The notes under the pieces: model-generated
What the model was told of the DNA's origin: nothing
What the model saw: the letters and a program-made list of their open reading frames with translations, nothing else
Database searches by the model: none
Shown here: positions 580 to 19,204 of the stretch, one piece after another
How the letters are laid out: each line of letters starts with the position of its first letter
Position numbering within the stretch: the first letter of the stretch is position 1
Source: an uncultured Verrucomicrobiota bacterium
GTDB taxonomy: Bacteria; Verrucomicrobiota; Verrucomicrobiia; Opitutales; Opitutaceae
DNA length: 64,000 nt
Assembly (NCBI GenBank): GCA_913058185.1
Contig: CAJXQX010000006.1
Coordinates: forward strand, 1 to 64,000
Reading direction: 5' to 3'
Translations under genes and position numbers: made by a program

Positions 580-1668
580 TCAGCGCACGACTCGGCCCGA
601 GGTGGCTCCCCCCATCAGGGCTTCAACTTCGGCACGGGTGGAATAATTAAAATCACCCTTGATCGAGTGCTTCAGGCAAGACGCCGCCACCGCATAGCGC
701 AGCGCTGTGCCGGGCTCGGCTAAGTCGGGCGTGGTGAGGGCAAAGATCAATCCACCGGCGAAGGAATCTCCGCCCCCTACCCGATCGACGATGTTTTTGA
801 TCTGATAAGGCTGGTAACTACTCGTGCCATCGAGCGGGGCAAAATACGCCGTGTCGGTGTCCCGCTCGTAGAGCATCGCTCCCCAATTATTGTGTGAGGC
901 GGACAAGCTTTCGCGCAGGGTGATTGCCACCCTACTCACGTTGGGAAACTGGCTGATAACCTGGCGGGCGACATCGGGGTAACGCGCCGTATCCAGTTCA
1001 CCGGAATCAACATCGGTCGCGCCGGCTTGGATGCTGAGCACGTCGTGACAATCTTCTTCATTGGCGATCACCAGATCGATGAATGGCAAGATGCCGCGCA
1101 TCGTCTTCTGGGCCAACTCAGGGGCCGGCGTGCCCGGTTCCCATTTCCACAATTTCTTCCGGAAATTCAGATCAATCGAAACTTGGCAGCCGGCGGCTTT
1201 TGCTTGCTGCGCCGCTACAAGTGTCGCTTCAGCGGCGATGGAAGAAAGCGCGGGCGTGATACCACTTAAATGCAGCCACTGTGCCCCAGCGAAAATCGAG
1301 GGCCAGTCGTATTGATCCGCCGGGGTTATTGCGATGGCAGAATCCTCGCGGTCGTAGATCACGTTGCTCGGACGTTGATTCGCACCCGTCTCCAGGAAGT
1401 AAACGCCCAGACGGCCGGAATCGGTGCGCAACACGTGCGTTGTGTCGATGCCGACCGAGCGCAGGGTGTCCATCGTAGCATCCGCCAGAGCATGCTTGGG
1501 CAATGCGGTCACGTAACGCGCGGAGCCACCGAAGTTGCAGACCGAAGCAGCAACACTCGCCTCCGCCCCAGCGTAGGTTACTTCCAATTCACGGGTTTGG
1601 CGCAGTCGCAGATTCTGCGGCGAGGCGAGGCGGCACATGATTTCGCCGAAGCTTACAATGGGTTTCAT
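580..1668 (-). CDS. kdgK: 2-keto-3-deoxygluconate (KDG)-type sugar kinase, PfkB family
   Basis: PfkB/ribokinase-fold kinase of 362 residues, predicted to phosphorylate a 2-keto-3-deoxy sugar acid with ATP in the cytoplasm. The N-terminus MKPIVSFGEIMCRLASP matches the family's first strand. The C-terminal PfkB signature DRVGGGDSFAGGL (about residue 300) contains the catalytic Asp and the anion-hole glycines. It is the last gene of the minus-strand operon, 12 bp after the aldolase whose substrate it would make. ATG at 1668 is the natural start; no strong Shine-Dalgarno precedes it. Whether the sugar is the gluconate or galactonate epimer cannot be told from sequence. The family call is firm, the substrate moderate. 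Confidence 0.85.
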   Translation of the reverse strand: MKPIVSFGEIMCRLASPQNLRLRQTRELEVTYAGAEASVAASVCNFGGSARYVTALPKHALADATMDTLRSVGIDTTHVLRTDSGRLGVYFLETGANQRPSNVIYDREDSAIAITPADQYDWPSIFAGAQWLHLSGITPALSSIAAEATLVAAQQAKAAGCQVSIDLNFRKKLWKWEPGTPAPELAQKTMRGILPFIDLVIANEEDCHDVLSIQAGATDVDSGELDTARYPDVARQVISQFPNVSRVAITLRESLSASHNNWGAMLYERDTDTAYFAPLDGTSSYQPYQIKNIVDRVGGGDSFAGGLIFALTTPDLAEPGTALRYAVAASCLKHSIKGDFNYSTRAEVEALMGGATSGRVVR

Positions 1669-1680
1669 AAAAGAGGAAAT

Positions 1681-2334
1681 TTAGGTGGTTTTCGCAGCAA
1701 TCTGACAGACTTCAGTCGCTCGCGCGGTGATTTGATCCCAGGCTTTCTGTTGAACCAAATCGGGTTTCACGATCCACGAACCTCCGATCGCAGGCACGTT
1801 CTTTTCCAGTAGATAGTTGACCATGTTGGTGGCATTTAGCCCGCCCAACGGAAAGAACTTCACTCCGAGGTGGGCGTAAGGGGCCGAAATGCTCTTGAGA
1901 TAAGGGAGCCCTCCAGCCGCTTCCGCGGGGAAGAACTTCACAAACCGGCAACCACACTCGATCGCCGCCTCCAACTCCGAAGGGGTCGCGATACCGGGAG
2001 CAAACGGCAGGTCGGCTTGTTGCGCCGCTTCGATCACCTTGCGATTGAGTCCGGGTGAAACCCCAAAGTCGGCGCCATTGGCTTTCACTTCGCGGGCTTG
2101 GTCTGGCGTGAGGATCGTGCCCACCCCGAGTAACATGTCAGGCACGCCCTCACTAATCGCCTTAACGGCGGCCATCCCGGCCTCCGTGCGCAGAGTCAGT
2201 TCGACAACCGAAATCCCCCCGGCGAGAAGCGCTTGAGCGAGGGGAACTGCATCCTCGACGCGGTCGATAGAAAAACCGGCCACCACTTTAGCCGCCTCCA
2301 ATCGCTGCATGATCCTTTCGGGGAAAACGTTCAT
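1681..2334 (-). CDS. eda: KDPG/KDPGal-type aldolase (2-dehydro-3-deoxy-phosphogluconate aldolase)
   Basis: Class I aldolase of 217 residues that would split a 2-keto-3-deoxy-6-phospho sugar acid into pyruvate and glyceraldehyde-3-phosphate. The general-base Glu lies in VVELTLRTE and the Schiff-base Lys in CRFVKFFPAE, as in Eda proteins; a GLNATNMVNYL segment ends the phosphate site. The track starts at a TTG (2343) that overlaps the upstream gene. I prefer the ATG at 2334, which follows the aldehyde dehydrogenase stop by one base. It sits between the dehydrogenase and the kinase, so the four genes form a closed pathway. Length is normal for the family. Epimer preference is unknown. Confidence 0.88.
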   Translation of the reverse strand: MNVFPERIMQRLEAAKVVAGFSIDRVEDAVPLAQALLAGGISVVELTLRTEAGMAAVKAISEGVPDMLLGVGTILTPDQAREVKANGADFGVSPGLNRKVIEAAQQADLPFAPGIATPSELEAAIECGCRFVKFFPAEAAGGLPYLKSISAPYAHLGVKFFPLGGLNATNMVNYLLEKNVPAIGGSWIVKPDLVQQKAWDQITARATEVCQIAAKTT

Positions 2335-2335
2335 A

Positions 2336-3733
2336 TCAATCAATGAGAACCGAGATACGTTTCAGTGTCAGGTATTCTTCCAAACTATATCGCGAACAGT
2401 CCTTGCCCATCCCACTTTGCTTCAGGCCGCCATGCGGCAGCTGCACCGAATAATGCGGTTCGTTTATGCAAACGCTGCCCGCCTTGATGTCGCGCGCAGC
2501 CCGCAGCCCGAGCGATAGGTTCGTCGTGAACACGTAGGCGGCCAAACCGTAAGGCGTGTCGTTGGCCAAGGCGATTTCGTCGTCCTTGTCCGTGAACTTC
2601 AGGATCGGTAAAACCGGACCAAAAATCTCGTCACTCGCCACCTTCATCTTCGGCACGACGTTGCGCAGGATGGTCGGCTCCATGAAAAACCCTGAACCCT
2701 CCACCGCATTTCCACCGGTCACAATTTCGGCGCCGTCCGCCACCGCTGACTCCACTAGGGCCAACACGTAGCGGCGCGCCTTCTCATTGACCAGTGGACC
2801 CATCTCGATCTCAGCCGCGCGTTGGCGAGCCGCCTCGACAAACTCCTCATAAACCGACTCATGCACAAAACAACGATTGGGCGATACGCACACCTGACCG
2901 CAGTTGGCGAACTTCAGATCGACGACCTTGTTGGCCGCATCCGTGATATCGGCATCGGGATATACCAACACCGGCGCGTTTCCTCCTAACTCGACGGAAA
3001 AATGTTTAACGCTCGTGCACGCGGCATTCAGCACTTCCAAGCCGCCGCGCGTTGAACCAATCATGGTCACGAGTGAAGGCACCTCACTTTGGAGGAGTGG
3101 TTTTACCGCATCGTGATCGCTGCTGGTGATCATGTTGACGACGCCATCGGGCACCCCCGCTTCTTTCGCCAGATAGGCGACCTCCAGCGAAGCGAGCGGC
3201 GTATGGCACGACGGCTTAATGATCGTGCTGCAACCTGAAGCCAGCACGGGACCCAGTTTGTAACCCACGTTGAGCAACGGAAAATTCCACGCCAGCATCC
3301 CCACCGTCACGCCGAGCGGCTGACGTTGGACGTAGTGCAAAAAGCGTCCGTCGGGATCGTGCAGCACCGGCTGATCCAACCGCTCAAACTCCTCAACGAA
3401 GAATCGCAAGCAGGTGGTCAACATGCCGAAATCATATTCCGCATTGTCGCGAGGTTTGCCGGTTTCAGCGATCAACAGATCAACGATTCTCGGCTGATTC
3501 GTCTCCAGCAAGTCGGCATAACGCAGGATCACTTCGCGACGCTTGGCCGGGGTTGTGGCCGACCATAATTGGAAGCCCTTTTCGGCCGCCGTGAGCACCT
3601 TCTGGATTGATCGTGAATCGATCTCCGGCACCGCACCTATCACCTTCCCCGTGGCGGGATTGATGACATCGCAGGTCTTCTTACTTCGAACGCGCTCACC
3701 TCCAATGAGCATGGGATAAATTTTGTTAGGCAT
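2336..3733 (-). CDS. NAD(P)-dependent aldehyde dehydrogenase, sugar-aldehyde oxidising
   Basis: ALDH superfamily enzyme of 465 residues. The cofactor-fold motif LAWNFPLLNVGYKLGP, the catalytic Glu in FSVELGGNAP and the catalytic Cys in NCGQVCVSPNR are all present, as is the EIFGPVLP segment near the C-terminus. The ORF track extends upstream to 3967 through low-quality sequence inside the neighbouring gene. The ATG at 3733 (MPNKIYPMLIGGERV) gives the normal ALDH N-terminus and overlaps the enolase-family gene's end by 8 bp, which implies translational coupling. With that enzyme and the kinase/aldolase pair it would oxidise a sugar aldehyde to its acid as the first step. The closest functional class may be 3,6-anhydro-L-galactose or succinate-semialdehyde-like dehydrogenases; this is inferred from context. 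Confidence 0.85.
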   Translation of the reverse strand: MPNKIYPMLIGGERVRSKKTCDVINPATGKVIGAVPEIDSRSIQKVLTAAEKGFQLWSATTPAKRREVILRYADLLETNQPRIVDLLIAETGKPRDNAEYDFGMLTTCLRFFVEEFERLDQPVLHDPDGRFLHYVQRQPLGVTVGMLAWNFPLLNVGYKLGPVLASGCSTIIKPSCHTPLASLEVAYLAKEAGVPDGVVNMITSSDHDAVKPLLQSEVPSLVTMIGSTRGGLEVLNAACTSVKHFSVELGGNAPVLVYPDADITDAANKVVDLKFANCGQVCVSPNRCFVHESVYEEFVEAARQRAAEIEMGPLVNEKARRYVLALVESAVADGAEIVTGGNAVEGSGFFMEPTILRNVVPKMKVASDEIFGPVLPILKFTDKDDEIALANDTPYGLAAYVFTTNLSLGLRAARDIKAGSVCINEPHYSVQLPHGGLKQSGMGKDCSRYSLEEYLTLKRISVLID

Positions 3734-4880
3734 CAGTTTTTTCCGTTTTCTGGACACAATAATTTGCCAGTGCCTCACGGTCGGGCTCGACGCCCAGCCC
3801 TGGGCCAGTCGGCACCGTGAGTTCTCCGTGCTCGATCTGCACACTTTGCCCGAACATCTCATCCCGCATCGGGTTCCTCGTGAGATCAGTCTCGAGCAGC
3901 GGCTCGGCGACTTCGGCGCGTCCCGGCTCCACGGAGGTCGTGGCCACGAAGTGCACCGCGCTCGCAAGATTCAACTGGGTGCCCCAACAGTGCGGCAGCA
4001 CATTCACGCCTTTGGACGACGCAATCGCGCGAATCTTGAGTGCTTCCGTCGGTCCTCCGCAGTAAGCCAAATCGGGCTGCGCAATGTGCACGCCGCCGTG
4101 CGACAGCAGATCCTGAAAACCGAATCGAGTCTGCTCACATTCGCCGGTGGCAATGGGCACATCGACCTTGGACGCAAGTTCCGAAAACTGCCGGCGCATT
4201 TCCGGCGAAAGCGGTTCCTCAAACCACGCGTAGTCGAGCTCTGCGAGCAACTTCCCGACCTTCACGGCCTCGGGTAAATCATAGGCGTGATTGGAGTCGG
4301 CCATGAGTTGCGTGTCCGGCAGCGCCTCGCGCATCGCCACGATGAGCCTCCGGTCGAAGGCCATGTTTTTCCCGACCTTGATCTTGAGGGCGCCAAACCC
4401 TCGCGCGACACAATCACGAGCTTCGTCCAGCAGGGTTTCGAGCAACTCCGATTCGGGCTGTTTGCGGAAATACATACTGGTCGCGTAACCTTGGACGCGG
4501 TCCCGCACTCGCCCTCCCATGAGTTCGGATACCGACACGCCCAGCAACTTCCCTTTCAAGTCAAGTAGCGCCATGTCCAATCCAGAAATGGCACCCATCA
4601 TCGGACCCTTCATAGCGAAGTCCAACGACGCGCGCCAGCAATGCTGCCAAGCCGCCTCGTTGCGCAACGGGTCCCAGCCAATCAGCAGCGGCGCGTAGAA
4701 GGTATCGATGGCATTTTGGGTCACTGTCGCGGGGCCATAACACTCGCCCCACCCGACCGCGCCGGAATCATCAATCACCTCTACGATCAAGGCATTGCGC
4801 ACATCATAGTGCCATTGGGAAAACCCGAAGGACTCCGTCAGCTTGTGCTGGAGGCGATAAGTTTTAATCGATCGTATCAT
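3726..4880 (-). CDS. Enolase-superfamily sugar-acid dehydratase/cycloisomerase (Gci-like)
   Basis: Mandelate-racemase-type TIM barrel of 384 residues. The KxK acid/base motif (ALKIKVG, Lys166/168), three metal ligands (Asp195 in ADSNHAY, Glu221 in FEEPLSP, Glu247 in TGECEQ) and the His in PHCWGT (about 297) are in order. The flanking WGECYGPA and PHCWGTQLNLA segments recall galactarolactone cycloisomerase and 3,6-anhydro-galactonate cycloisomerase proteins, from remembered family sequences. The track extends 65 residues too far upstream; ATG 4880 (MIRSIKTYRLQ) starts the true N-terminal capping domain. It lies between AraC and the aldehyde dehydrogenase in the operon. The likely product is a 2-keto-3-deoxy sugar acid. 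Acid-sugar dehydratase is the alternative. Confidence 0.82.
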   Translation of the reverse strand: MIRSIKTYRLQHKLTESFGFSQWHYDVRNALIVEVIDDSGAVGWGECYGPATVTQNAIDTFYAPLLIGWDPLRNEAAWQHCWRASLDFAMKGPMMGAISGLDMALLDLKGKLLGVSVSELMGGRVRDRVQGYATSMYFRKQPESELLETLLDEARDCVARGFGALKIKVGKNMAFDRRLIVAMREALPDTQLMADSNHAYDLPEAVKVGKLLAELDYAWFEEPLSPEMRRQFSELASKVDVPIATGECEQTRFGFQDLLSHGGVHIAQPDLAYCGGPTEALKIRAIASSKGVNVLPHCWGTQLNLASAVHFVATTSVEPGRAEVAEPLLETDLTRNPMRDEMFGQSVQIEHGELTVPTGPGLGVEPDREALANYCVQKTEKTDA

Positions 4881-4905
4881 GGCGAAATAGGAATGGAATA
4901 AGGGG

Positions 4906-5856
4906 TCAAGTTTGGAGCTCCCGAATTTGCCGAGTATGGTGTTTCTGCCGACGGAAATCGGCCGGAGAGAACCCGACGTTTTTCTTAAACTGGCGGCCAA
5001 AATGAGTGTAATCGTTGAAGCCCACTTCGTAGCAGACATCGAGCGCGTTGTCGGTGGTATCACGCAGCAAGACACACGCGTTTTCGATGCGAAGACTGTT
5101 GAGATAATCGAGAAACGTCATGCCGGTCTCGTGTTTAAACAGGCGGCAAAAATACGTCTCCGACGCCCCACTCATCGCCGCCATTTCTTTCAACGTCAGC
5201 GGGTCCTTAAAGTTGTCGTGGATGTGGGTGAGCGTCGTACGCAGACCATCCTTGTAGCGAGAGATAGGACTGGCCCGGGTGACCCGCATTGTCGTATTGC
5301 CCATGTCATCCCGTTCCTTTTGTCCCGACAATAACATCAACAAGTTCAAGAAATTGCAGCGGGTTTGCGCATGTGCTATTTCGGATTCATCGTGCGTGCT
5401 CTGTTTCAGCTGCTCGAACAAGTTTACCACCGTCGCTCGCTGGTCCGGCTCGATCTCGATCTGCACCGCCGAGACATCCGCTTCCGCGAGGTCGAAGAAC
5501 GATTTAAAGAAGTAACGATTCGGCGACGAAGACGCTTTGAGTTCCTCTAACGAGTCGATCCCGTAATCCACGATCTGCGGCAGAAAACTGCAGCAAAATG
5601 CCCGCACGGTTTCATCGCGTTTCTGATCAATCAGCACGTGGCGCACAAACGGTTTCATGATCACCACGTCGCCTGCCTTCATCGTCACGTCGGCGCTTTT
5701 GAAACGGTTCACCAACTTGCCTTCCTCCACGTAGAGCATTTCAAAATACTCGTGCCGATGGAGCTCCTTCCGGATCAGCGTCCGGTCCACCACCGTGTCC
5801 ACTGTGATGGGAAACGCCGACTCCGAAAACAGCTCTCTGGATTTAACGAGGGACAT
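4906..5856 (-). CDS. AraC-family transcriptional regulator of the sulfatase/sugar-acid operon
   Basis: 316-residue one-component regulator. The N-terminal cupin (RHEYFEMLYVEEGKL, then AGDVVIMKPFVRH) would bind the sugar inducer. The C-terminal third has the double helix-turn-helix: LTLKEMAAMSGASETYFCRLFKHETG, then ALDVCYEVGFNDYTHFGRQFKKNVGFSP, ending PADFRRQ. It is embedded in the operon, 37 bp after the sulfatase and 25 bp before the enolase-family gene, so it probably controls the promoter in the 320 bp region upstream of the sulfatase. The inducer cannot be named. ATG at 5856. Confidence 0.88.
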   Translation of the reverse strand: MSLVKSRELFSESAFPITVDTVVDRTLIRKELHRHEYFEMLYVEEGKLVNRFKSADVTMKAGDVVIMKPFVRHVLIDQKRDETVRAFCCSFLPQIVDYGIDSLEELKASSSPNRYFFKSFFDLAEADVSAVQIEIEPDQRATVVNLFEQLKQSTHDESEIAHAQTRCNFLNLLMLLSGQKERDDMGNTTMRVTRASPISRYKDGLRTTLTHIHDNFKDPLTLKEMAAMSGASETYFCRLFKHETGMTFLDYLNSLRIENACVLLRDTTDNALDVCYEVGFNDYTHFGRQFKKNVGFSPADFRRQKHHTRQIRELQT

Positions 5857-5893
5857 GCGGAAAGTTAGTAAGGGTCGAGTAGTCGGACCGAAA

Positions 5894-7519
5894 TCAGTTG
5901 GGCAGGCTTCCCCGCCAGCCCCGGTTGAGTTGGCTTAAAAGTTGGGCGATCACGCCAGGGTGCTGCCTGGCAATATTCACCGTTTCGGACGGGTCGTTAT
6001 CGTGATCGTAGAGTTCGACAAATATGGGATCGGCCGCCGGATGCTTCACGTCTTTCCACGCAATCAATCGGTAACGATCCGTGCGCATCGCATAACCCAT
6101 CAAATCGTTTTCAAAGAGCTCACGATCCCACTTGTCGCCCTGCTGCTGGATGATGTTCGCCTCTACATCACGAATCAGCGGACCAAAAAACAATTCGCGC
6201 ATATCGTCAGTCAGCGGGTTGGCCGCCCACTCCCGCAGAGCTGGGTTGGGATATTGGCTGAAGGCCGCCGTTTTCCAGGCGCGATCCGGTTCCTCCAGCA
6301 ACGGCGCGAAGCTGTGTCCCTCCAGATGAGTCGGCAGCGATATACCAGCCAATTCGCACAGTGTCGGATACATATCCACGAGCTCCACCAAGGCATCCGT
6401 CGTGCGCCCGCGGCTGCCCCGCGGCATGTCCGGCGTCCAGATCATCAGCGGCACGCGAGTGCCGATTTCGTAGTTGGTCGCCTTCCCCCAAATTCCCATT
6501 TCACCCAAATGCCAGCCGTGATCGCCCCACACGATGATGATCGTATTGTCACGCACTCCCGCCGCTTCGAGCGCTGCTACCATCCGTCCGATCTGCGCAT
6601 CGACATAACTGGCACAAGCCAAATAACCGTGCCGCAGCGTGCGAGCTAGATCCGGCTCAATGTCGCCGTATTTCGGAATCGCATGTCGGGTCCGTAATTC
6701 GAATGAGGCATGCAGTCCCATCGCCGCTCCGTCCCGGGGCGCATCGACTTGCTCAGCGATCGGCATCGAGTCGCGATCATACAGGTCCCAATATCGTTTG
6801 GGGGCGATGAAATCGAGGTGCGGTTTCTTCAATCCAAGTCCCAGAAAGAACGGCTGTTGTTCGTTCTTGAGCAGATCGTGCAGGGTCTCGATCGCGAGAT
6901 CCGTATTGTAACCATCTTCGTAAGTCTGATCCGGCACATCAGCCGACTCGTAGGCGGGCCCCTTCAGCAATGCGCTATGCGCGTCGGCCCCGAGTTTCTT
7001 TATTTTCTCCGCCCTAATCTCCCCATTCTCCGGTAGAGCGAATCTCACCGGATCAGCCCATTTCTGGCGCGTCTTCACGCCCGTGGGACTCCGGCTCCAT
7101 GACAGCTCTTCGTCACCGAAAGCTGCGTTGTGGTAGATCTTCCCGGTGCGAACCGTAGCGTAACCATTGGCCCACAGATGTTGCGGCAACGTGATAATAT
7201 CCGGATTCGCATCGCGGAAATAAGTGTAGTTCTCAACAACCCCGATCGTATCAGGTCGCGCCCCGGTCATCAGACTGGCCCGCGACGGACTGCAAATCGC
7301 CTGCTGGCAATAAGCCCGGTTAAACAACAAACCATCGCCGGCGAGCGCATCCATATGCGGAGTAATCGCGATCTCGGAGCCGTAGCTGCCGAGTTCCGGA
7401 CGCAAGTCATCAATGGCAATAAATAGAATATTGGGCCGATCAGCACCAACGCAATATACGGTCCCGACGATGCCGACAAAACCGACAATCAAAGCGCGCA
7501 TAACAAAAAATGTCTTCAT
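5894..7519 (-). CDS. Exported formylglycine-dependent sulfatase (iduronate-2-sulfatase-like)
   Basis: 541 residues with an N-terminal hydrophobic segment ending near GADRPN, probably a signal peptide. Metal ligands appear in FIAIDDLRPELG. The catalytic motif is AICSPSRASLMTG (Cys76), the C-x-P-x-R type in which Cys becomes formylglycine through a maturase not present here. WGDHGWHLGEMGIWGK supplies the C-terminal metal/His residues. Overall motif spacing resembles iduronate-2-sulfatase-like S1 sulfatases. It is the promoter-proximal gene of the minus-strand operon, so sulfate removal is tied to catabolism of a sulfated sugar such as an algal polysaccharide. Secretion and substrate are inferred. 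Confidence 0.9.
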   Translation of the reverse strand: MKTFFVMRALIVGFVGIVGTVYCVGADRPNILFIAIDDLRPELGSYGSEIAITPHMDALAGDGLLFNRAYCQQAICSPSRASLMTGARPDTIGVVENYTYFRDANPDIITLPQHLWANGYATVRTGKIYHNAAFGDEELSWSRSPTGVKTRQKWADPVRFALPENGEIRAEKIKKLGADAHSALLKGPAYESADVPDQTYEDGYNTDLAIETLHDLLKNEQQPFFLGLGLKKPHLDFIAPKRYWDLYDRDSMPIAEQVDAPRDGAAMGLHASFELRTRHAIPKYGDIEPDLARTLRHGYLACASYVDAQIGRMVAALEAAGVRDNTIIIVWGDHGWHLGEMGIWGKATNYEIGTRVPLMIWTPDMPRGSRGRTTDALVELVDMYPTLCELAGISLPTHLEGHSFAPLLEEPDRAWKTAAFSQYPNPALREWAANPLTDDMRELFFGPLIRDVEANIIQQQGDKWDRELFENDLMGYAMRTDRYRLIAWKDVKHPAADPIFVELYDHDNDPSETVNIARQHPGVIAQLLSQLNRGWRGSLPN

Positions 7520-7839
7520 GGGGGATGGGTAATTATGGCCGATATTCGTCCTAATCAGATCCGGGGGTGAACCAATGGCTTCTCGAATCTCTCACACCTT
7601 GGGTAAGTTTGGAACGGCGTATTTTGTATAAATCACAGTGGATATTGCATTATTCTGAGTTTTCAGCCCCTTCCTTCTCTTATAAGGCGATTTCTGGACC
7701 GCGTATATGATACGGTTGGTCAACGGTTGAAAGACTTTCGATTCGCCGAAATTCTGAGGATGCGTAGTAGTCTTCGAACGAGATATAGGCATACTGCGCA
7801 CATTAAGGATCGCTGCCGCTCCTCCACCCATCTGCCCCG
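7520..7839. promoter_or_regulatory. Divergent promoter region between the sulfatase and DUF1552 operons
   Basis: 320 bp without a credible gene. It must hold the promoters of both divergent operons. It contains ATTTTGTATAAATC (7621-7634), whose left half matches the TTGTATGCAA sites near the GntR-controlled genes, and the short palindrome GTTGGTCAAC near 7716. Neither is assigned with confidence. The ORF on the minus strand here (7592-7831) has no recognisable features and is probably spurious. Confidence 0.45.
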
Positions 7840-9129
7840 ATGAAAAACGTAAATTTCAACTTCGCAAAGGCGCTTTCCCGCCGCTCCTTCCTCAAGGGAG
7901 CCGGCGTCAGCATGGCATTGCCTTGGCTCGACGCAATGACCCCCGCCTTTGCCGCATCTCTGGCTCACCAACCTCCTCGTCGTTTCGTCGCGGTAACCCT
8001 TGCTCTCGGCCTGCACGGACCGAACCTCAATCCGACCGAGGCCGGCCGAAACTACACCCCCTCCCCTTACCTCAACGACCTCGCCGATTTGCGAGATGAC
8101 ATGACGATTGTCAGTGGCGCCTCCCATCCGGGTGTCAGCGGAGGTCACATGGCTGAGGGTAGCATTTTAACGGCCGCACCTTTCTCGCGGAACGCTGCCT
8201 TTAAAAATTCGATCTCCATCGATCAATACATGGCGCGGCACCAGGGCCACCACACCCGCTTCCCATCGCTGGTGTTAAATATCAACGGCTCCAACAGCGC
8301 ATCCTATACGGATTCCGGCAGTATGATTCCCGCGGAGGAGTCTCCCTCCAAAGTATTCAACCAACTCTTCATCCCCGACACCCCAGCTGAAAAGGCCCTC
8401 CAGATTGAGCGCCTACGCCAAGGCCGCAGCGTGATGGATGTCGTTTCGTCGGATGCCAAACGCGTCATCCGCACGCTCAGCTCGGGTGATCGCGATAAGG
8501 TCGACCAATACTTCACCTCCGTGCGCGATTTTGAAAAACGCCTCGGCGAAGCCCAAGAGTGGGCCGATCGCCCGAAGCCTAAAGTCAACGCTCCCATCCC
8601 GGTCGATATTTCCAATAGCGACGCGATCATTGACCGGAAGAAGTTGCTTCTCGACGTCACTTTCCTCGCGTTGCAAACGGATTCAACCCGCTTTGTAACC
8701 ATTCACCTCAACGGTGAAGGAGGGGCCGTGCCGCTCCCCGGTGTCGATCAAGGCTACCATGGCTTGAGTCACCATGGCCTCGACGAAATGAAACTCGATC
8801 AATTGACCCTCGTGGAAACCGAACTGATGCGCAAATACGGCAACTTCCTACGTGACCTCAAGGGTGCTGAAGAATCTAACGGCAGTATGCTCGATTCCAC
8901 TAGCGTGCTCATGACTTCCAATCTTGGTAACGCGAGCTCCCATGATAACCGCAACATGCCCGTGGTCCTCGCGGGCGGCGGATTCCGTCACGGCCAACAT
9001 ATTGCCTACGATCGCAAGGATAACTACCCGCTGCCAAATCTCTACCTCAGCCTGCTGCATCGCCATGGTATCGAAGCCGACCAATTCGCCACCAGCACCG
9101 GTGAGATGAGCGACCTGTCGATGGTCTGA
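7840..9129 (+). CDS. Tat-exported DUF1552 family protein
   Basis: 429 residues beginning with a twin-arginine signal (SRRSFLKGAGVSMALPWLDAM). The remainder matches the DUF1552 pattern: FVAVTLALGLHGPNLNP, SGASHPGVSGGHM, HGLSHHG and SNLGNASSHDN. DUF1552 proteins are common in Planctomycetes and Verrucomicrobia, almost always paired with DUF1592/1588/1587 cytochrome-type proteins as here, and resemble sulfatase/alkaline-phosphatase-like folds. The biochemical function is not established. It is first in the plus-strand operon, 50 bp before the DUF1592 gene and divergent from the sulfatase. The start follows a GC-rich CTGCCCCG context shared with the third gene. Confidence 0.85.
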   Translation: MKNVNFNFAKALSRRSFLKGAGVSMALPWLDAMTPAFAASLAHQPPRRFVAVTLALGLHGPNLNPTEAGRNYTPSPYLNDLADLRDDMTIVSGASHPGVSGGHMAEGSILTAAPFSRNAAFKNSISIDQYMARHQGHHTRFPSLVLNINGSNSASYTDSGSMIPAEESPSKVFNQLFIPDTPAEKALQIERLRQGRSVMDVVSSDAKRVIRTLSSGDRDKVDQYFTSVRDFEKRLGEAQEWADRPKPKVNAPIPVDISNSDAIIDRKKLLLDVTFLALQTDSTRFVTIHLNGEGGAVPLPGVDQGYHGLSHHGLDEMKLDQLTLVETELMRKYGNFLRDLKGAEESNGSMLDSTSVLMTSNLGNASSHDNRNMPVVLAGGGFRHGQHIAYDRKDNYPLPNLYLSLLHRHGIEADQFATSTGEMSDLSMV

Positions 9130-9179
9130 GTTTAGCGATCACCGGTTTCATTTCAAACGCCCACGCGCCCAACCTACCC

Positions 9180-11552
9180 ATGTCCCGGAGGTTCCTTCTA
9201 CTTTCCATCATCACCGCCGGCGTAGTGACCGCGCAGGCCGACGATTCCAACGCATTCCCTCCTCTCGTCTCCGAGTTCTTCGATCTCAGCTGTTTCGAGT
9301 GTCACAACCCGGTTGATAAGAAAGGTGAACTCGATCTCGAATCGCTGAAGTTCGACTCCTCCCAACTCTCGGATCGCAGCCTCTTGGCCATGATTCACGA
9401 CCGGGTGCGCGATGGGGAAATGCCTCCCAAGGAAGACTCACTCGTCGAACCCGAGGAGCGCCGTAATTTTCTTACCGAATTCGAAGCCAAAATTCACCGC
9501 GCCTCTGCTATTCACACCCAAGAACTTGGCCGCGTGAAATCCCGCCGCTTGAGCCAGGTCGAATACGAAAACACCCTCCACGATCTCTTCGGGATCGATA
9601 TCCCGCTACTGGAACACCTGCCGGAGGAAACGGCCAAAAACAGCTTCATCAACATCGCGGACAGCCAACAAATCTCGTATCATCTCCTGCAGAAGTATCT
9701 CGTCGCCATCGACCTGATGCTGGACGAGTCGTTCAAACAGGCGATCGAGCCCCGCGTGACCTACTACGAAGAATTCGAACCCCACCAACTCGGCGTGGGG
9801 CGCGAACGAATTGCCAACGAACGCATGGCCGTCTATGACGCCGACAACCACCAGCTACTCAGTTTTCCCTCCACCAACGGCTTCCACGGTCGTTTGCCCG
9901 ACACGACCGTGACGGAGACCGGCTGGTATCGCGTCACCGTCACCGCCAAAGCCCATAACGCGCCGCCTGGCCGCAGCGTTTGGACCCGACTCAAAACCGG
10001 TATCCTGCGCGCCAAGGCCCCCATGACTTACTGGGTGGGCCATTTCGAAGCGACCGACGAACTGCGCACCCACTCCTTCGACACTTGGATCCGAGCCCCT
10101 CACCAACTCGGAATCAGACCCATCGACAAGACGATCGACTGGGTTAGCTCCAAAGAAATCTATTCATTCGACGCGGTGAATAATGGTGCTGCCGCCGTAG
10201 CCGTCAAAGGCCTCACGATGGAGCGCATCTACCCGGGCCTCGCCCCAAAAGATTTACGTCAAAACCTGTTTGGTGACCTTGAGATCGACCAAGGTGAACT
10301 CCAGAGTGCGAACCCCCATCAAGACCTCGCTGACCTGTTGCTCCGCTTTGCCAATCGAGCTTTCCGTCGCTCTGTCACGGCCAAAGAGCTCGAGCCCTAT
10401 GTCGACTTCGCCAAAGACGAAATGGCCGATAGCGATTCACTCCTCGCCGGCGTGCGAGCCGGGTATCGGGCCATACTTTGTTCCCATCGGTTCATTTACT
10501 TCACTGAGGAACCCGGTCGTCTGGATGATTACGCCATCGCCTCTCGGTTAAGCTACTTCCTCTGGAGCACCACTCCCGATGCGGAACTTCGCCGTCTCGC
10601 CGATGCCGGCAAACTTTCCAATCCGCAAACGATCCGCCAACAGGTCGAACGCATGCTGGATGACGAACGATCACAGGCTTTCGTGGAGAATTTTTCCGAT
10701 AACTGGCTGAACCTAAACGACATCAATTTCACCACCCCGGACGCCAAACTGTATCCAGAATTCGATCCGGTTTTACTCTACTCAATGTTGGATGAAACTC
10801 ACAGTTTTCTAAGTCTGATGATTGAGGACGATCTGAGTGTAACTCATGTGATCGACTCCGACTTCACCGTCGTGAATGAGCGCCTCGCTCACCATTACGG
10901 CCTGCCATTTGAATCCGGTGAGGAATTTCAAAAAATCACGCTCACCGACGACGACCACCGCGGCGGCATCATCACTCAAGCCAGTGTGCTCAAAGTAACG
11001 GCCAACGGAACCACCACCTCGCCAATCGTGCGCGGCGCTTGGCTCATCGAACGTATTCTCGGCCAACATATCCCGCCGCCACCCGACCAGGTTCCCGCCA
11101 TCGAACCCGATATCCGTGGTGCCGTTTCGATCCGAGATCAGATGGATAAACACCGCTCGATCGAAAGCTGCATGGCCTGCCACAAGATGATCGATCCTCC
11201 CGGTTTCGCGCTCGAAAACTACGATGTCATCGGCGGCTGGAGAGACCACTACCGCGCCAAGTCCGAAGAGGATAAACTTATCCAAGGTCCCATCGTAGAT
11301 GCCAGCTACCACATGGCCGACGGCCGCCCCTTCCAAGACATCGAAGGATTCAAAAGCATTGTGCTATCGTCCCCCGACAAGATCGCGCGCAACGTTTTAA
11401 ACCAGATTCTCACCTACGCTACTGGGGCCGAAATTCAATTTGGTGACCGTCGCGAAATCGATCGCATCGTTACCGAGCTCGCCGAACACGACTACGGTTT
11501 CCGCTCCCTCATCCTCGCCGCCACCCAGAGCGACATCTTCCTTTCCAAATAA
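9180..11552 (+). CDS. DUF1587/1592/1588/1585/1595 planctomycete-type cytochrome protein
   Basis: 790-residue exported protein. A short signal peptide ends about residue 20. It is followed by a planctomycete cytochrome c-type heme motif (SCFECH, Cys38/Cys41/His42) and by RVKSRRLSQVEYENTLHDLFGI, typical of the DUF1587 start. Later segments RLSYFLWSTTPDAEL (DUF1592), GGIITQASVLKVTANGTTTSP (DUF1588) and a second CxxCH, CMACHKMIDPPGFALENYD (about residue 664), follow the usual domain order, and the DUF1585 tail closes the protein. Two heme-binding motifs suggest electron transfer or oxidation in the periplasm, with the DUF1552 partner. The substrate is unknown; linkage to a sulfatase locus suggests sugars, by inference only. 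Confidence 0.88.
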   Translation: MSRRFLLLSIITAGVVTAQADDSNAFPPLVSEFFDLSCFECHNPVDKKGELDLESLKFDSSQLSDRSLLAMIHDRVRDGEMPPKEDSLVEPEERRNFLTEFEAKIHRASAIHTQELGRVKSRRLSQVEYENTLHDLFGIDIPLLEHLPEETAKNSFINIADSQQISYHLLQKYLVAIDLMLDESFKQAIEPRVTYYEEFEPHQLGVGRERIANERMAVYDADNHQLLSFPSTNGFHGRLPDTTVTETGWYRVTVTAKAHNAPPGRSVWTRLKTGILRAKAPMTYWVGHFEATDELRTHSFDTWIRAPHQLGIRPIDKTIDWVSSKEIYSFDAVNNGAAAVAVKGLTMERIYPGLAPKDLRQNLFGDLEIDQGELQSANPHQDLADLLLRFANRAFRRSVTAKELEPYVDFAKDEMADSDSLLAGVRAGYRAILCSHRFIYFTEEPGRLDDYAIASRLSYFLWSTTPDAELRRLADAGKLSNPQTIRQQVERMLDDERSQAFVENFSDNWLNLNDINFTTPDAKLYPEFDPVLLYSMLDETHSFLSLMIEDDLSVTHVIDSDFTVVNERLAHHYGLPFESGEEFQKITLTDDDHRGGIITQASVLKVTANGTTTSPIVRGAWLIERILGQHIPPPPDQVPAIEPDIRGAVSIRDQMDKHRSIESCMACHKMIDPPGFALENYDVIGGWRDHYRAKSEEDKLIQGPIVDASYHMADGRPFQDIEGFKSIVLSSPDKIARNVLNQILTYATGAEIQFGDRREIDRIVTELAEHDYGFRSLILAATQSDIFLSK

Positions 11553-11568
11553 CCTCTCCTCTGCCCCG

Positions 11569-12288: not shown

Positions 12289-12429
12289 GGACATTTCTCT
12301 GAAAGGCCGGCTCGGGTTCACAGCATCTGCGAATTCTCACGCAACCGACCTGAAGCCCCTTCGATCGTATCCCAGTAGCCGTCAGCCTTCGTTGAAACGG
12401 TGTCCGTGAACCGAATCACGCCGAGCCAA

Positions 12430-13038: not shown

Positions 13039-13083
13039 GTGAAATCACATCTTCACCAGAATATCTGGATCGTTCAATACGGA

Positions 13084-13093
13084 TTCCATACAA
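13084..13093 (-). promoter_or_regulatory. Putative GntR operator upstream of the regulator gene
   Basis: On the minus strand this reads TTGTATGGAA within ATATTGTATGGAATC. It differs by one base from the TTGTATGCAA palindrome upstream of the alcohol dehydrogenase, the other end of the same operon. The form TTG-x(4)-CAA/GAA fits operators of FCD-type GntR regulators. Position 46-55 bp before the gntR start suggests autoregulation. Confidence 0.5.
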
Positions 13094-13163
13094 TATGCGC
13101 GAGACACTTGGAGGTATTTGTCTATTCAGACCCTTCGGGAAAGACCATCGATCTCACGCCGCT

Positions 13164-14519: not shown

Positions 14520-14525
14520 AACAAC

Positions 14526-15650
14526 TCAAACTTCCGCGCAGCTTTCCGCGGTGATGTTTTCTCCTTTTAGGTAAGGGGCCAAGGCGGGCCAATCGAAAGT
14601 CACGCCAATTCCCGGTTCATCCGGAGCAACCGCGAGGTGATTTTCTAGGGCCAAGGGCCGGATGGTGTATTGGTCGATCGGGAAACTGTGATACTCAAGC
14701 CAACCCGCATTGCTCTGCGCCGAGACCAAACTCACGTGCAATTCCTGCATGCCGTGAGAACATATTGGCAGTCCGTATTCACGTGACATCGCGGCGACTT
14801 TGAGCCACGGCGTAATCCCGCCGCAGGTCGAGGCATCGGGTTGAATGAAGGACAACTTCGCCTGACGAAACGCGTAGCCGAACTCGTGCACGGTGTGGAG
14901 GTTCTCCCCCATCGCCAATGGCATCGCCGTCTTATCCGCGATCTCCGCTATACCTAAATAATCGTCGGGTAGAGTCGGTTCCTCCAGCCAGTAAATATTG
15001 TAGGGTCGAAACGCTTCCGCCGCTTCAACCGCCTGCGCCACCGACCAACCATAATTGGCGTCGACCATGAACGTGACGTCGGAGCCAATCATCTCACGCA
15101 CCGCTTTCACCCGGGCCACATCTTCGGCCAACTCAGGCTGCCCAACTTTGATTTTCACCGCATTGAACCCGCGGTCCAGATACCCCTGCACATGCGTCAG
15201 TAGTTTCGGTAGGGGGAAATTTAAATCGATCCCACCGCCATAGACGCGACAGGTGCGTCCCGCGCCTCCCGCGACTTTCCACAGAGGTAAATTCGCTTTG
15301 CGGCAACGAATATCCCACAGCGCGATATCAATCGCTGCCATGGCAAAACTGGAGATTCCTCCCCGTCCGACATAATGGATGTGCCACTCGCAAAATTCGG
15401 CAATCGCTTCGACGTCGTCGCCATCGTGACCAATAAGCTCAGGCGCAAGATCGTCATCGATCATCGCCTGAATTGCAGTGCCGCCTCGTCCCCCGGTGTA
15501 GCAGTAGCCCGTGCCTTCGCTACCGTCTGCCAACGTGATCGTCGCGGTCACCAACTGGAAACTAAAATGATCACCGTGTTTAGCATCCGTCAGCACCTCG
15601 GCCAAAGGAACGTCAAACAATCGGGAGACGATATTAACGATCTCACTCAT
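14526..15650 (-). CDS. Enolase-superfamily acid-sugar dehydratase (mandelate racemase/muconate lactonizing type)
   Basis: 374 residues. The KxK motif is in NAVKIKVG (Lys166/168). Metal ligands are Asp197 (VDANYGW), Glu223 (LEEPTLPDD) and Glu249 (MGENLHT), and the catalytic His is in SHGMQELH (about 299). The [11 protein letters not shown]...GWLEYH region resembles L-talarate/galactarate-type dehydratases more than the Gci-like paralogue in this window. The track's TTG start is replaced here by the ATG at 15650 (MSEIVNIV), which overlaps the preceding dehydrogenase stop by 8 bp, the same coupling as in the first operon. Substrate could be rhamnonate, fuconate or another sugar acid; sequence alone does not decide. 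Confidence 0.82.
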
Positions 15651-17130
15651 CAGATCCCGGGGCAAAATTCACGTAGACCGTTTTCTTCTCGAGGTAGTTC
15701 TCCATCCCGTATTTTCCATCTTCGCCGCCGGTGCCGCTCTTGCGGAATCCATTGTGGAATCCCTGCCGCTGTTCACCCATCGCGCGGTTGATGTAGATCT
15801 CGCCGAAGTGGAGCTCGCCGACCGCCCGCTGAATCCGACGCATATCCTTGGTGAAAAGATACGCGGACAACCCATACTCGCTGTCATTAGCCAACCACAG
15901 CGCCTCTTCATAACTACCGATGCGCATAATGGGACTGACCACCCCGAAGACCTCATCGCGCATGATTTCCATGTCGTTGGACGCTTCGGTTAAAATCGTC
16001 GGCTTGAACCAATGACCTTTTTTAAAGCGGGCTCCTTTGGGTCGACTGCCACCGAGGGCAACCTTGCATCCGGCGTCGACCGCACGCTGCACCATCGCTT
16101 CCATTTTTTCGAGTTCCACCCGGCTGACTTTTGGGCCGATATCAGTGCCCTTCTTCATGGGATCGCCGAGTTTCAGCTTGGCACTGGCCGCGACGAATTT
16201 TTGGACAAATTCATCGTAGACGGCATCGTGGATGTAATAACGCTCCGAGCAGGTGCAGACCTGACCGTTGTTCAAATAGCGGGAAACCATCGCGGCATCG
16301 ACCGCCTGATCCACGTCGCCATCCTCCATCAAAATAAACGGTGCCTTACCGCCAAGTTCGAGCCGCACGGCCGACAGATTGTCCGCACACGAACGAAAAA
16401 TCTCCTGTCCGGTCCGTGTGCTACCGGTCATCGTCACCAGGCGCGTGATGGGGTTCTTCACCAGAGCGGCGCCCAGTTCCGCGCCTTGGCCAGTCACGAT
16501 ATTGATCACGCCTTTGGGCAGCCCAGCCTCGGTCGCAAGTTTGCCAAGTTCCAAAACCGTCAAAGGCGTCAAAGGCGGCGGTTTCACCACCATGACATTA
16601 CCCGCCGTCAAAGCGGGTCCAATCTTCCGGCAAGCCAGCGCTAAGGGGAAATTCCACGCCAATATCCCAACCGTAACGCCGTAAGGCACTTTGTGTATCC
16701 AGATATGCTCATCGGGGTTATCGGACGGATAAATATCACCCTCCAACCGACGCGCACCAGAAGCCGCAAAGTTGATGAAATCGGCCGACACATCGACTTC
16801 GCCGTAGGCCAACGGTAGCACCTTGCCCTGCTCGGCGACTAAAAGATGAGCGAGCCGATCTCGGTTCTCGCTGATCTTCGCAGCGAACTTGGTGAGGAGG
16901 GCTCCTCGCACCACTGCGGGGGTCGCTGCCCAATCCGGTTGCGCAGCTTGCGCCGACTCAAGCGCTCGTTGCGCTTCGGCTTCGCCCCCTTCTTGCACGG
17001 TGGCGATGAGTTCTTCGGTGGTCGGATTTTCGACTTTAATTTTCGCCTTCGAGGCCGCCGAGACCCACTGACCATCGATATACATTTGGTAGTGATCGAT
17101 GCCGTTCCTTCTACGTTTCATTGGAGCCAT
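15643..17130 (-). CDS. AldA-like lactaldehyde/glycolaldehyde dehydrogenase
   Basis: 495-residue aldehyde dehydrogenase. [16 protein letters not shown] precedes the catalytic Glu in RLELGGKAP, and the catalytic Cys lies in [12 protein letters not shown]. The C-terminal [21 protein letters not shown] and [10 protein letters not shown] closely follow E. coli AldA in form, so oxidation of lactaldehyde or a similar short hydroxyaldehyde is the best guess. Starts at 17130 (MAPMKRRRN) or 17121 (MKRRRN) are both plausible; the track start at 17181 runs into the preceding gene. It lies between kduD and the dehydratase in one operon. Lactaldehyde production would point to deoxyhexose (fucose or rhamnose) catabolism, but no aldolase for that is in the cluster. 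Confidence 0.84.
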
Positions 17131-17165
17131 GGTAAGAAAATTTAAAAGTGTGATTGAAGAAAAAC

Positions 17166-17939
17166 TTAGCGCCCCATCCATCCACCATCGACCAACATGG
17201 TGGTGCCGTGCACGTAGCGAGCGGCGTCAGAAGCCAGAAATACGACGGGGCCTTTGAAATCTTCGGGTTCGCCCCAACGCCCAGCGGGGATGCGAGCCAG
17301 GATTTGCGCCCGACGAACCGAATCGTCACGCAAGGCCTGAGTGTTGTCTGTCGCGATGTAACCGGGAGCGATCGCATTCACGTTCACGCCTGATTTGGCC
17401 CATTCATTGGCAAATGCCATGGTGAGTTGTCCGATCCCTCCTTTACTTGCGGCGTATCCTGGAACGGTGATGCCGCCCTGGAACGTGAGCAGCGATGCCG
17501 TAAAAATCACTTTGCCCGAACCGCGCTCCACCATCTCTCGGCCAAATTCCCGCGTCAGCACGAACTGCGCGTTCAAGTTCACTTCCATCACTTGATCCCA
17601 ATATTCGTCGGAATGCTCGACCGCGGGTGCCCGTAATATAGTTCCGGCATTATTTACCAGGATATCTACCACCGGGTGATTCGCTTTCACCTCCGCAATA
17701 AATCGGTATAATGCGGGCCGGTCCGCGAAGTCACAGGCGTAACCACGAAAGGAGCGACCGGTGGCATTTACCGCCTGCTCGACTGCGCTACCCGATGCTT
17801 CGAGCGAAGCGGAAACACCGATAATATCAGCACCAGCTTCGGCGAGAGCTTCCGCCATCGCGCGGCCGATACCACGTTTGCACCCGGTCACGAGCGCGGT
17901 GCGACCCGTAAGGTCGAAGGTTTGGAGTGTATTCTTCAT
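17166..17939 (-). CDS. kduD: KduD-type short-chain dehydrogenase (2-deoxy-D-gluconate 3-dehydrogenase family)
   Basis: 257-residue SDR. The cofactor motif is TGCKRGIGRAM, NNAG follows, and the catalytic Ser/Tyr/Lys appear in SLLTFQGG and YAASKGG. The C-terminal half (NVNAIAPGYIATDNTQALRDD, RIPAGRWGEP, VDGGWMGR) tracks E. coli KduD almost word for word as I recall it. KduD interconverts 2,5-diketo-3-deoxygluconate and KDG in unsaturated-uronate catabolism. If so, its product could feed the kdgK/eda pair of region 1. It is 20 bp downstream of the alcohol dehydrogenase. Confidence 0.82.
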   Translation of the reverse strand: MKNTLQTFDLTGRTALVTGCKRGIGRAMAEALAEAGADIIGVSASLEASGSAVEQAVNATGRSFRGYACDFADRPALYRFIAEVKANHPVVDILVNNAGTILRAPAVEHSDEYWDQVMEVNLNAQFVLTREFGREMVERGSGKVIFTASLLTFQGGITVPGYAASKGGIGQLTMAFANEWAKSGVNVNAIAPGYIATDNTQALRDDSVRRAQILARIPAGRWGEPEDFKGPVVFLASDAARYVHGTTMLVDGGWMGR

Positions 17940-17959
17940 GTCGCCAAAATGGGGTGCTT

Positions 17960-18979
17960 CTAGGAGGCGCAGGAAATCAGGGTTTTGATACCGCTCGGTT
18001 GTCTCTCGATCTCTTCGAAGGCCGCCTGCACTTCGTCTAGGGGGCGAACTTCGGTGATGAGTTTGTCCAGACTCAGTTGGCCACTGGCGGCTAATGCGAT
18101 CGCCTCATCAAAGTCACAAGGCTCGTAGAGTCGGGCGCCAATCAAACGTAACTCCGACCAAAAAAACTTAAATAAACTCACGGGCCGCGGCTCCGGGTGA
18201 ATCGCGACCATCACGATCCGGCCGCGCGCGGCGGACACTTCGGTCATCGCTTCAACGCCGGGAGCAGACCCCGAGACTTCAAACACACAATCCGCCATCG
18301 CTCCATCGGTGATCTTGGCGACGGCCTCCGGGAGTTTCTCTTTCAGCGGATTCACCGTAATGATACCGAGCGATTCAGTGAGTTTGAGGCGAACCTCGTT
18401 GATCTCTGACAAAATCACGCGGGCGCCTTTGGACTTCGCGACCAGCGCGATCAACAACCCGATCGGACCTCCCCCGATCACAACACACGTTTCACCCGCT
18501 TTCACTTCGCCGAGCCGTACGTCGTGGCAGGCCACCGCGGCCGGCTCGATCATCGCTCCGTGTTGCATGGAAAGTTCCTCCGGGAGGTTGTGGAGCGTGT
18601 AGGCCGGGACCGTCCACGAGGCTTGCATGCCACCGGGCTGATCGATGCCGATGAACTTCAGATTACGCCCCACATGAGCGTTCCCGCGGTCGAATTCCGT
18701 CTCCGGGCCAAAACAAAGCGGACGCACTGCCACACGATCGCCGGCGGAAAACTCGGTAACGCCCTCGCCGACCTCGGCGACGGTCGCAGAGACCTCGTGA
18801 CCAATGACGAGTGGTTGGCTGACTCGCTGGTCCATATGGCCGAGGAAGATGTGCATGTCGGTCCCGCAAATACCGCAATAAGCGACGTCGAGGCGCACTT
18901 CACCAGGCCCCGGAGGCATGGGGAGACTTTCGACGACTTCGATCGAGCGAGTGGACGCGTAGGCGGCTGCTTTTTTCAT
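17960..18979 (-). CDS. Zinc-dependent medium-chain alcohol/polyol dehydrogenase
   Basis: 339 residues from ATG 18979 (MKKAAAYAS); the 47 residues the track adds upstream are promoter sequence. Catalytic zinc ligands are Cys in CGICGTD, His-Glu in IGHEVSATV and Glu in MIEPAAVACHD. The Rossmann motif is VIGGGPIGLL. The structural-zinc four-Cys lobe of classical enzymes is not visible; FGPETEFDRGN occupies its place. The family covers sorbitol, idonate and threonine dehydrogenases, so it probably oxidises a secondary hydroxyl of a sugar or sugar acid. It is first in the second operon, with a TTGTATGCAA palindrome about 120 bp upstream. Confidence 0.85.
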   Translation of the reverse strand: MKKAAAYASTRSIEVVESLPMPPGPGEVRLDVAYCGICGTDMHIFLGHMDQRVSQPLVIGHEVSATVAEVGEGVTEFSAGDRVAVRPLCFGPETEFDRGNAHVGRNLKFIGIDQPGGMQASWTVPAYTLHNLPEELSMQHGAMIEPAAVACHDVRLGEVKAGETCVVIGGGPIGLLIALVAKSKGARVILSEINEVRLKLTESLGIITVNPLKEKLPEAVAKITDGAMADCVFEVSGSAPGVEAMTEVSAARGRIVMVAIHPEPRPVSLFKFFWSELRLIGARLYEPCDFDEAIALAASGQLSLDKLITEVRPLDEVQAAFEEIERQPSGIKTLISCAS

Positions 18980-19096
18980 GAAAGGTGAGGGTCGTTGGGC
19001 TCGGATTACGGGTCCAAAATCCTTCCCCGAAATCAACAAAAAGGAAACTGATTGAGCCGATTGAGAACCAATACATCGCGGCCGTTCTGTCGATGT

Positions 19097-19112
19097 ATTT
19101 TGTATGCAATCT
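19097..19112. promoter_or_regulatory. Putative GntR operator upstream of the alcohol dehydrogenase operon
   Basis: TTGTATGCAA (19100-19109), an imperfect palindrome flanked by ATT and TCT. It lies about 120 bp before the first gene of the operon and closely matches the site upstream of gntR at the other end of the operon. This pairing supports control by the GntR regulator. Adjacent AT-rich bases may be the promoter. No footprint can be inferred beyond this. Confidence 0.5.
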
Positions 19113-19204
19113 GAATTCAAACGCTTAATTCGACTTAATGGCGGGCAAAAAATTTAGCTTGCCCGAACCTATCTGGTGGGGGGCGAATTGAGTCAAAATA
19201 CCAG

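Follow-up and report, generated by a model that had tools for sequence, protein, structure and literature searches.

The subject of this analysis is a six-gene sulfatase operon at positions 580-7519 of a 64,000-nucleotide stretch, here called the window, from an uncultured marine Opitutaceae bacterium of the Verrucomicrobiota (GenBank assembly GCA_913058185.1, contig CAJXQX010000006.1). On the basis of homology, a lid motif of its cycloisomerase, and gene context, we consider it highly likely that this is a dau operon, of a type found in the Planctomycetota-Verrucomicrobiota-Chlamydiota (PVC) group, for carrageenan-derived 3,6-anhydro-D-galactose (D-AnG). The substrate and stereochemistry of every step, as well as the inducer, are predictions. 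A first-pass annotation had described a sulfatase operon of six genes, which was borne out by open reading frames (ORFs), Pfam families, and motifs. Its idea that the genes together take an anhydro-galactose all the way to pyruvate was supported in kind, but the L enantiomer that it named was not.

Operon organization

The window represents the start of contig C6 in an assembly of 4.09 Mb, 159 contigs, and 99% completeness. An ORF check of the window placed all six genes on the minus strand, in the following order:

5894..7519, minus strand: leading gene of the operon, encoding a sulfatase of the formylglycine type that carries a signal peptide and probably belongs to SulfAtlas S1_7 (Pfam Sulfatase, 163 bits; CSPSR; structural match and identities given below)
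4906..5856, minus strand: AraC-family regulator with cupin-type sensor domain (Pfam HTH_18, 80 bits; HTH_AraC; Cupin_2)
3726..4880, minus strand: DauB-like enolase-superfamily cycloisomerase (Pfam MR_MLE_C, 198 bits; best structure 5olc, 42.4% identity; conserved catalytic residues; lid motif)
2336..3733 (ATG at 3733), minus strand: DauA-like aldehyde dehydrogenase, ALDH (Pfam Aldedh, 449 bits; best structure 6pnu/6pop)
1681..2343, minus strand: Eda-type 2-keto-3-deoxy-6-phosphogalactonate/gluconate (KDPG) aldolase (Pfam Aldolase, 207 bits; TIGR01182, 223 bits)
580..1668, minus strand: PfkB kinase of the 2-keto-3-deoxygluconate (KDG) type (Pfam PfkB, 97 bits; best structure 2afb, a KDG kinase)

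All six Pfam families scored above cut-off. The intergenic gaps of 37, 25, -8, 1, and 12 bases, in gene order, are consistent with a single operon, and the run of six genes is complete, its neighbors being an ORF that converges on it and ends at 571 and a DUF1552 gene that diverges from it, starting at 7840. The aldolase probably starts at ATG 2334, the mechanical ORF beginning at TTG 2343. Catalytic motifs were intact in the sulfatase (CSPSR, the formylglycine site), ALDH (ELGG and CGQVC), kinase (GGGDSF), and aldolase (KFFPAE). The operon is more than a chance arrangement, since Kiritimatiellales, Planctomycetota, and Opitutae share the cycloisomerase-ALDH-aldolase-kinase block at 57-81% identity. 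Scans of the operon for promoters and terminators gave no excess over shuffles, and no RhaT or major facilitator superfamily (MFS) transporter genes lie within it.

The cycloisomerase is DauB-like

The structures that matched the cycloisomerase best were 5olc (324 bits) and 4ggb, the Gci enzyme AtGci (288 bits), followed at a distance by the L-specific enzyme 5xd7 (101 bits). This agrees with the earlier suggestion that the enolase-family member stands nearer to cycloisomerases than to simple dehydratases. The top match is DauB (ZGAL_3156) of the Zobellia carrageenan pathway, assayed to convert 3,6-anhydro-D-galactonate to 2-keto-3-deoxy-D-galactonate (PMC5698469). The residues named in that study, namely, the catalytic Lys, three acidic metal ligands (D/E/E), a His, and the pocket Asp and Trp, were all aligned and conserved in the window protein. 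It also carries the lid motif FxFSQWxYxxR, a WGE-x-YGP turn, and GECE, which are common to the DauB proteins of Zobellia and Flammeovirga and absent from AtGci and the L-enzyme of Vibrio sp. EJY3 (VeACI, 5xd7). The shorter pattern [FY]SQ-x-x-Y occurs in all three carrageenan-linked, that is, D-linked, cycloisomerase lineages.

AtGci (4ggb/4hpn) belongs to the same enolase-superfamily branch, has the same catalytic residues, and is about 40% identical to the window protein, nearly as close over its full length as DauB. As the second-best structure, it would suit an aldonolactone/aldarate route (for example, through galactaro-lactone) or another sugar-acid lactone route fed by the ALDH. We regard such a route as improbable. 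At the lid and pocket positions AtGci has ESASMRFD and GETW, neither of which is present in the window cycloisomerase. Plasmid-borne matches were found at 40-42% identity, and the top one, which was inspected, lay in a Gci-type locus. A locus of that type has KdgD and a tripartite ATP-independent periplasmic (TRAP) transporter rather than a sulfatase with a KDG kinase and aldolase, and the operon contains neither KdgD nor TRAP genes.

A De Ley-Doudoroff-type route, in which a D-galactonate or gluconate dehydratase takes the place of the cycloisomerase and the sulfatase acts on ulvan, fucoidan, or another polysaccharide, would use the same kinase and aldolase, which suit any 2-keto-3-deoxy-hexonate. 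The enolase-superfamily catalytic residues alone cannot tell dehydratase from cycloisomerase, and the operon's sulfatase has an S1_7 ulvan sulfatase as its nearest structure. However, the NCBIfam models for galactonate dehydratase and gluconate/galactonate dehydratase scored far under cut-off on the window protein (172 versus 311 and 130 versus 750). That protein shares only 28% identity with the second enolase-family protein of the Pseudoalteromonas carrageenovora locus, which is probably a galactonate dehydratase, and orthologous loci have DagA-type GH127 and GH16 genes. This route is therefore judged very unlikely.

Dehydrogenase, kinase, aldolase, and regulator

For the ALDH, the best structures were 6pnu/6pop (375 bits, 39.9% identity), 58 bits ahead of the next match at 317. 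They were deposited with a study of Pseudoalteromonas fuliginea, the aldehyde dehydrogenase of which is the D-specific DauA (PMC6923384). At 39.9% identity, we infer specificity for D-AnG in the window enzyme as well. The kinase matched KDG kinase 2afb best (263 bits) and has orthologues at 71-81% identity in five dau loci. With the aldolase, which exceeded the TIGR01182 cut-off, the cluster thus holds both a predicted KDG-type kinase and a predicted KDPG-type aldolase. Orthologues of the AraC protein (64-66% identical) lie upstream of the cycloisomerase gene in Pontiellaceae B12227, SZUA-380, and Pontiella sulfatireligans, and the protein is probably an inducer-responsive activator of the operon.

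The agar/porphyran route for 3,6-anhydro-L-galactose favored by the first-pass annotation runs through the same sequence of dehydrogenase, cycloisomerase, kinase, and aldolase, drawn from the same enzyme superfamilies. As a function of the operon itself it has very little probability, and the assignment was rejected. The L-enzyme is a distant match to the cycloisomerase (31% identity) on a separate branch of the tree, and the nearest ALDH structure is D-specific. In the Pseudoalteromonas atlantica/Paraglaciecola L-route, an oxidoreductase pair converting 2-keto-3-deoxy-L-galactonate (L-KDGal) to KDG precedes the kinase and aldolase (PMC5943477), whereas in the Zobellia D-route 2-keto-3-deoxy-D-galactonate passes directly to kinase and aldolase (PMC5698469). 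No such pair is present in the 580-7519 operon; a true L-cycloisomerase with two extra oxidoreductases stands in a separate cluster, described below.

The sulfatase

The best sulfatase structure was 6hhm, an S1_7 ulvan sulfatase (318 bits), followed by iduronate-2-sulfatase. The sulfatase fold, the CSPSR motif (C-x-[PA]-S-x-R type), and the nearest structure all point to S1_7, a class assigned here by structure match rather than by SulfAtlas. The protein is 60% identical over 544 amino acids to a sulfatase flanked on both sides by GH127 genes in the dau locus of Flammeovirga and 62-65% identical to sulfatases in Pontiella and Pelagicoccus dau loci. Since S1_7 includes Zobellia CgsB, which removes the galactose 4-sulfate in kappa-carrabiose, we propose a CgsB-like carrageenan (galactose-4-sulfate) sulfatase, its regiochemistry being predicted by this kinship.

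Related loci

Relatives at 58-77% identity were found in Kiritimatiellales, Planctomycetota (Adhaeretor), Pelagicoccus, Opitutae, Alteromonadales, and Desulfobulbales, and the cycloisomerase-ALDH-aldolase-kinase block is kept in five of these loci. In P. sulfatireligans, the order is MFS transporter, GH127, S1_7 sulfatase, AraC, RhaT-like symporter, cycloisomerase, ALDH, aldolase, kinase, second GH127, and another sulfatase. Identities to the operon are 65% (sulfatase), 64% (AraC), 76% (cycloisomerase), 81% (ALDH), 70% (aldolase), and 80% (kinase). Its DagA-type GH127 proteins are 57-65% identical to the copies in the Flammeovirga dau locus, the one next to the MFS gene reaching 64%, and GH127 enzymes of the Zobellia locus release D-AnG. 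Strain F21 of P. sulfatireligans grows on iota-carrageenan and desulfates it quantitatively (PMC6388578). Genes for GH127 and/or GH16 also occur near the cycloisomerase gene of B12227, Adhaeretor, Pelagicoccus, and Alteromonadales, the GH16 genes adjoining the block in Adhaeretor, B12227, and Alteromonadales.

The dau loci of P. sulfatireligans F21 and related Kiritimatiellales (L018, L011, and L012) resemble the window operon in protein identity (63-81%), PfkB kinase, AraC regulator, and, in P. sulfatireligans, the position of the S1_7 sulfatase. Unlike the operon, they have a RhaT-like symporter, and several also have an MFS transporter and DagA-type GH127. The dauABCD/carrageenan locus of Zobellia galactanivorans (ZGAL_3145-3159; PMC5698469) likewise unites dehydrogenase, cycloisomerase, kinase, aldolase, S1_7 sulfatase, and AraC, with cycloisomerase and ALDH of the same characterized kinds and the same lid motif. 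It differs in that identity is only about 40%, and the window operon is without GH127/GH129, S1_17, S1_19, or transporter genes.

Lone cycloisomerases at 68-71% identity to that of the window, with no other dau genes adjoining, were observed in Desulfofustis/Desulfobulbaceae (L016:7344-8492, L030:8995-10149, and L024:8947-10155), and two of these three genomes have an L-type cycloisomerase elsewhere.

Phylogeny and evidence weighing against the assignment

Several observations weigh against the D-AnG reading. Full-length identity barely separates DauB (42.4%) from Gci (39.5-42.4%). The cycloisomerase was 42.4% identical to Zobellia DauB (ZgDauB), 40.5% to Flammeovirga DauB (FkDauB), 37.2% to the P. 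carrageenovora DauB candidate (PcDauB), 39.5% to AtGci, and 42.4% to a Thioclava Gci-like protein. Placement by identity alone was thus uninformative. A first tree of 49 rows joined the window clade, ZgDauB, and FkDauB at 94/93, adjoining Gci. In later trees, to which PcDauB (L115) was added, the three carrageenan-linked lineages and Gci formed a near-polytomy, with 51/13 support for the window clade with ZgDauB. The comparison with ACI and Gci proposed by the first-pass annotation set the protein apart from VeACI, while its separation from Gci held in the first tree and faded in the later ones. In approximately unbiased (AU) tests, the window clade held with Gci was rejected, but marginally (p-AU 0.046), and a grouping of all D-type lineages was not rejected (0.32). 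The corresponding test with VeACI was meaningless, as one long outgroup row can attach anywhere. Since the addition of PcDauB weakened the first tree, phylogeny was not used for placement; the predicted position of the cycloisomerase rests on lid motif and gene context.

Further points concern the other genes. The kinase is PfkB, not the DgoK type used as DauC, and the aldolase is only 29% identical to Flammeovirga DauD. The sole GH127 match of the genome (C98) is not supported as DagA, since it is only about 32% identical to DagA proteins that share 55-65% identity among themselves. The genome search for GH16 suggested in the first-pass annotation found one gene (C56), which does not group with dau-linked GH16 and is not supported as a carrageenase. 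Finally, the 8.7-Mb Pontiella-genus genome G059, which appears to be Pontiella desulfatans F1, has two D-type cycloisomerase copies. Strain F1 was reported without growth on iota-carrageenan (PMC6388578). Given these two copies, cycloisomerase presence is not a clean predictor of carrageenan growth in Pontiella.

In the 49-row tree, the window cycloisomerase nested with Kiritimatiellales, not with Opitutae or Pelagicoccus, and it can be regarded as a lineage separate from Zobellia DauB. No close copy was found in the seven same-genus genomes searched. This absence and the nesting hint at transfer; base composition gave no sign of it (57% versus 56% GC).

Release of D-AnG

The genome contains at least 151 sulfatase genes versus one GH16 and one GH127 match. 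Its glycosidase searches covered GH127, GH16, and GH129; the GH129 search had no match, but its control was silent too. The earlier remark that no agarase or carrageenase is in view was correct for the operon and its surroundings. DagA (GH127) is part of the core Dau system (PMC5698469). A DagA-type GH127 is encoded neither in the operon nor in the genome and is present in orthologous loci; its absence bears on how the sugar is set free and leaves the steps encoded by the operon itself unaffected. No GH127 match was found in 7 of 20 other genomes with this cycloisomerase lineage, including Colwelliaceae in which GH16 and sulfatase genes adjoin the cycloisomerase. Like the genome studied here, two Colwelliaceae dau genomes lack the known GH127 type. 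For Pseudoalteromonas, the anhydro-D-galactosidase was described as still unknown (PMC6923384). These data sharpen the question of which enzyme frees D-AnG where the known GH127 type is absent.

A protein family with FG-GAP/ASPIC domains (CRTAC1-like, 36-49% identical) recurs in gammaproteobacterial carrageenan-type loci (L021:17200-19065; L023:6785-8695 and 16060-17937; L115:1-1388), including one genome free of GH127. The family is a candidate for the missing anhydro-D-galactosidase step.

A neighboring cluster predicted for the L enantiomer

About 5 kb from the D-type operon lies a complete-looking 3,6-anhydro-L-galactose cluster:

12430-13038, minus strand: GntR/FCD regulator (Pfam)
13164-14519, minus strand: Nramp-like transporter (Pfam; NF037982 over cut-off)
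14526..15665, minus strand: 3,6-anhydro-L-galactonate cycloisomerase, L-ACI (63.1% identity over 360 amino acids to VeACI 5xd7, 546 bits)
15643..17181, minus strand: probable 3,6-anhydro-L-galactose dehydrogenase, AldA-like ALDH (NF007497, 529 bits, over cut-off)
17166..17939, minus strand: KduD-like short-chain dehydrogenase/reductase (SDR), probable 2,5-diketo-3-deoxy-L-galactonate reductase (TIGR01832, 324 bits, just below cut-off)
17960..19120, minus strand: Zn-dependent alcohol dehydrogenase (Zn-ADH), probable L-KDGal 5-dehydrogenase (ADH_N, ADH_zinc_N)

The L-ACI grouped with 5xd7 at 100/100 in the 49-row tree, and the VeACI reference sequence agreed residue by residue with 5xd7. In other genomes, the AldA-like ALDH adjoins L-ACI at 49-68% identity (five genomes) and the Zn-ADH does so at 48-71% (six genomes). 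A 72% identical SDR lies within the same block of two Alteromonadaceae, and a 60% identical GntR regulator is next to the L-cassette of Pelagicoccus mobilis. The block of L-ACI, Zn-ADH, and SDR, usually with ALDH, recurs in Pontiella, Pelagicoccus, and Alteromonadaceae. As predicted from these matches, 12430-19120 is the L-route that the first-pass annotation named, located outside 580-7519. Its enzymes match the L-pathway of Vibrio sp. EJY3, P. atlantica, and Paraglaciecola hydrolytica, which runs parallel in chemistry to the D-route. P. hydrolytica likewise combines D and L modules in a single large cluster (PMC5943477).

Elsewhere in the genome (L091:5784-7536; G000:C24), another pair made up of a KDG-type kinase and a KDPG aldolase is 32% and 53% identical to the operon pair. 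It could take KDG from the L-branch; a kinase shared by both branches is possible but not required. A tentative idea, which we consider rather unlikely, is that 580-19120 forms one dual-enantiomer anhydrogalactose unit in an organism devoid of both DagA-type GH127 and dau-linked GH16. In that case, an as yet undescribed 3,6-anhydro-D-galactosidase would free D-AnG, or the cell would only scavenge it from other degraders, and products of both branches might be handled by the PfkB kinase and aldolase. The plus strand of the interval separating the two sugar clusters (7840-12288) carries a planctomycete-type gene set, the products of which are a DUF1552 protein, a cytochrome-type protein with DUF1592/1588/1585/1587, and a lectin-like protein that is secreted.

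Proposed pathway and implications

In the proposed D-AnG pathway, the secreted S1_7 sulfatase would strip sulfate from carrageenan oligosaccharides, and D-AnG, freed by a glycosidase encoded outside the operon, would enter the cell. The DauA-like ALDH would oxidize it to 3,6-anhydro-D-galactonate, the ether ring of which would be opened by the DauB-like cycloisomerase to give 2-keto-3-deoxy-D-galactonate. Phosphorylation by the PfkB kinase and cleavage by the KDPG-type aldolase would then yield pyruvate and glyceraldehyde-3-phosphate, with the AraC protein probably turning the operon on. The chemistry is ordinary, and both D and L routes are already known in kind. The operon is a variant in gene content, with PfkB in place of a DgoK-type kinase, a distant aldolase, a separate cycloisomerase lineage, and no glycosidase of its own.

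These findings correct the probable substrate of the operon from an agar sugar to a carrageenan sugar and would place routes for both enantiomers close together in one genome. The carrageenan pathway would also gain a coherent type of operon, found in Kiritimatiellota, Verrucomicrobiota, and Planctomycetota alike, in which the kinase has been swapped and the cycloisomerase forms a lineage of its own.

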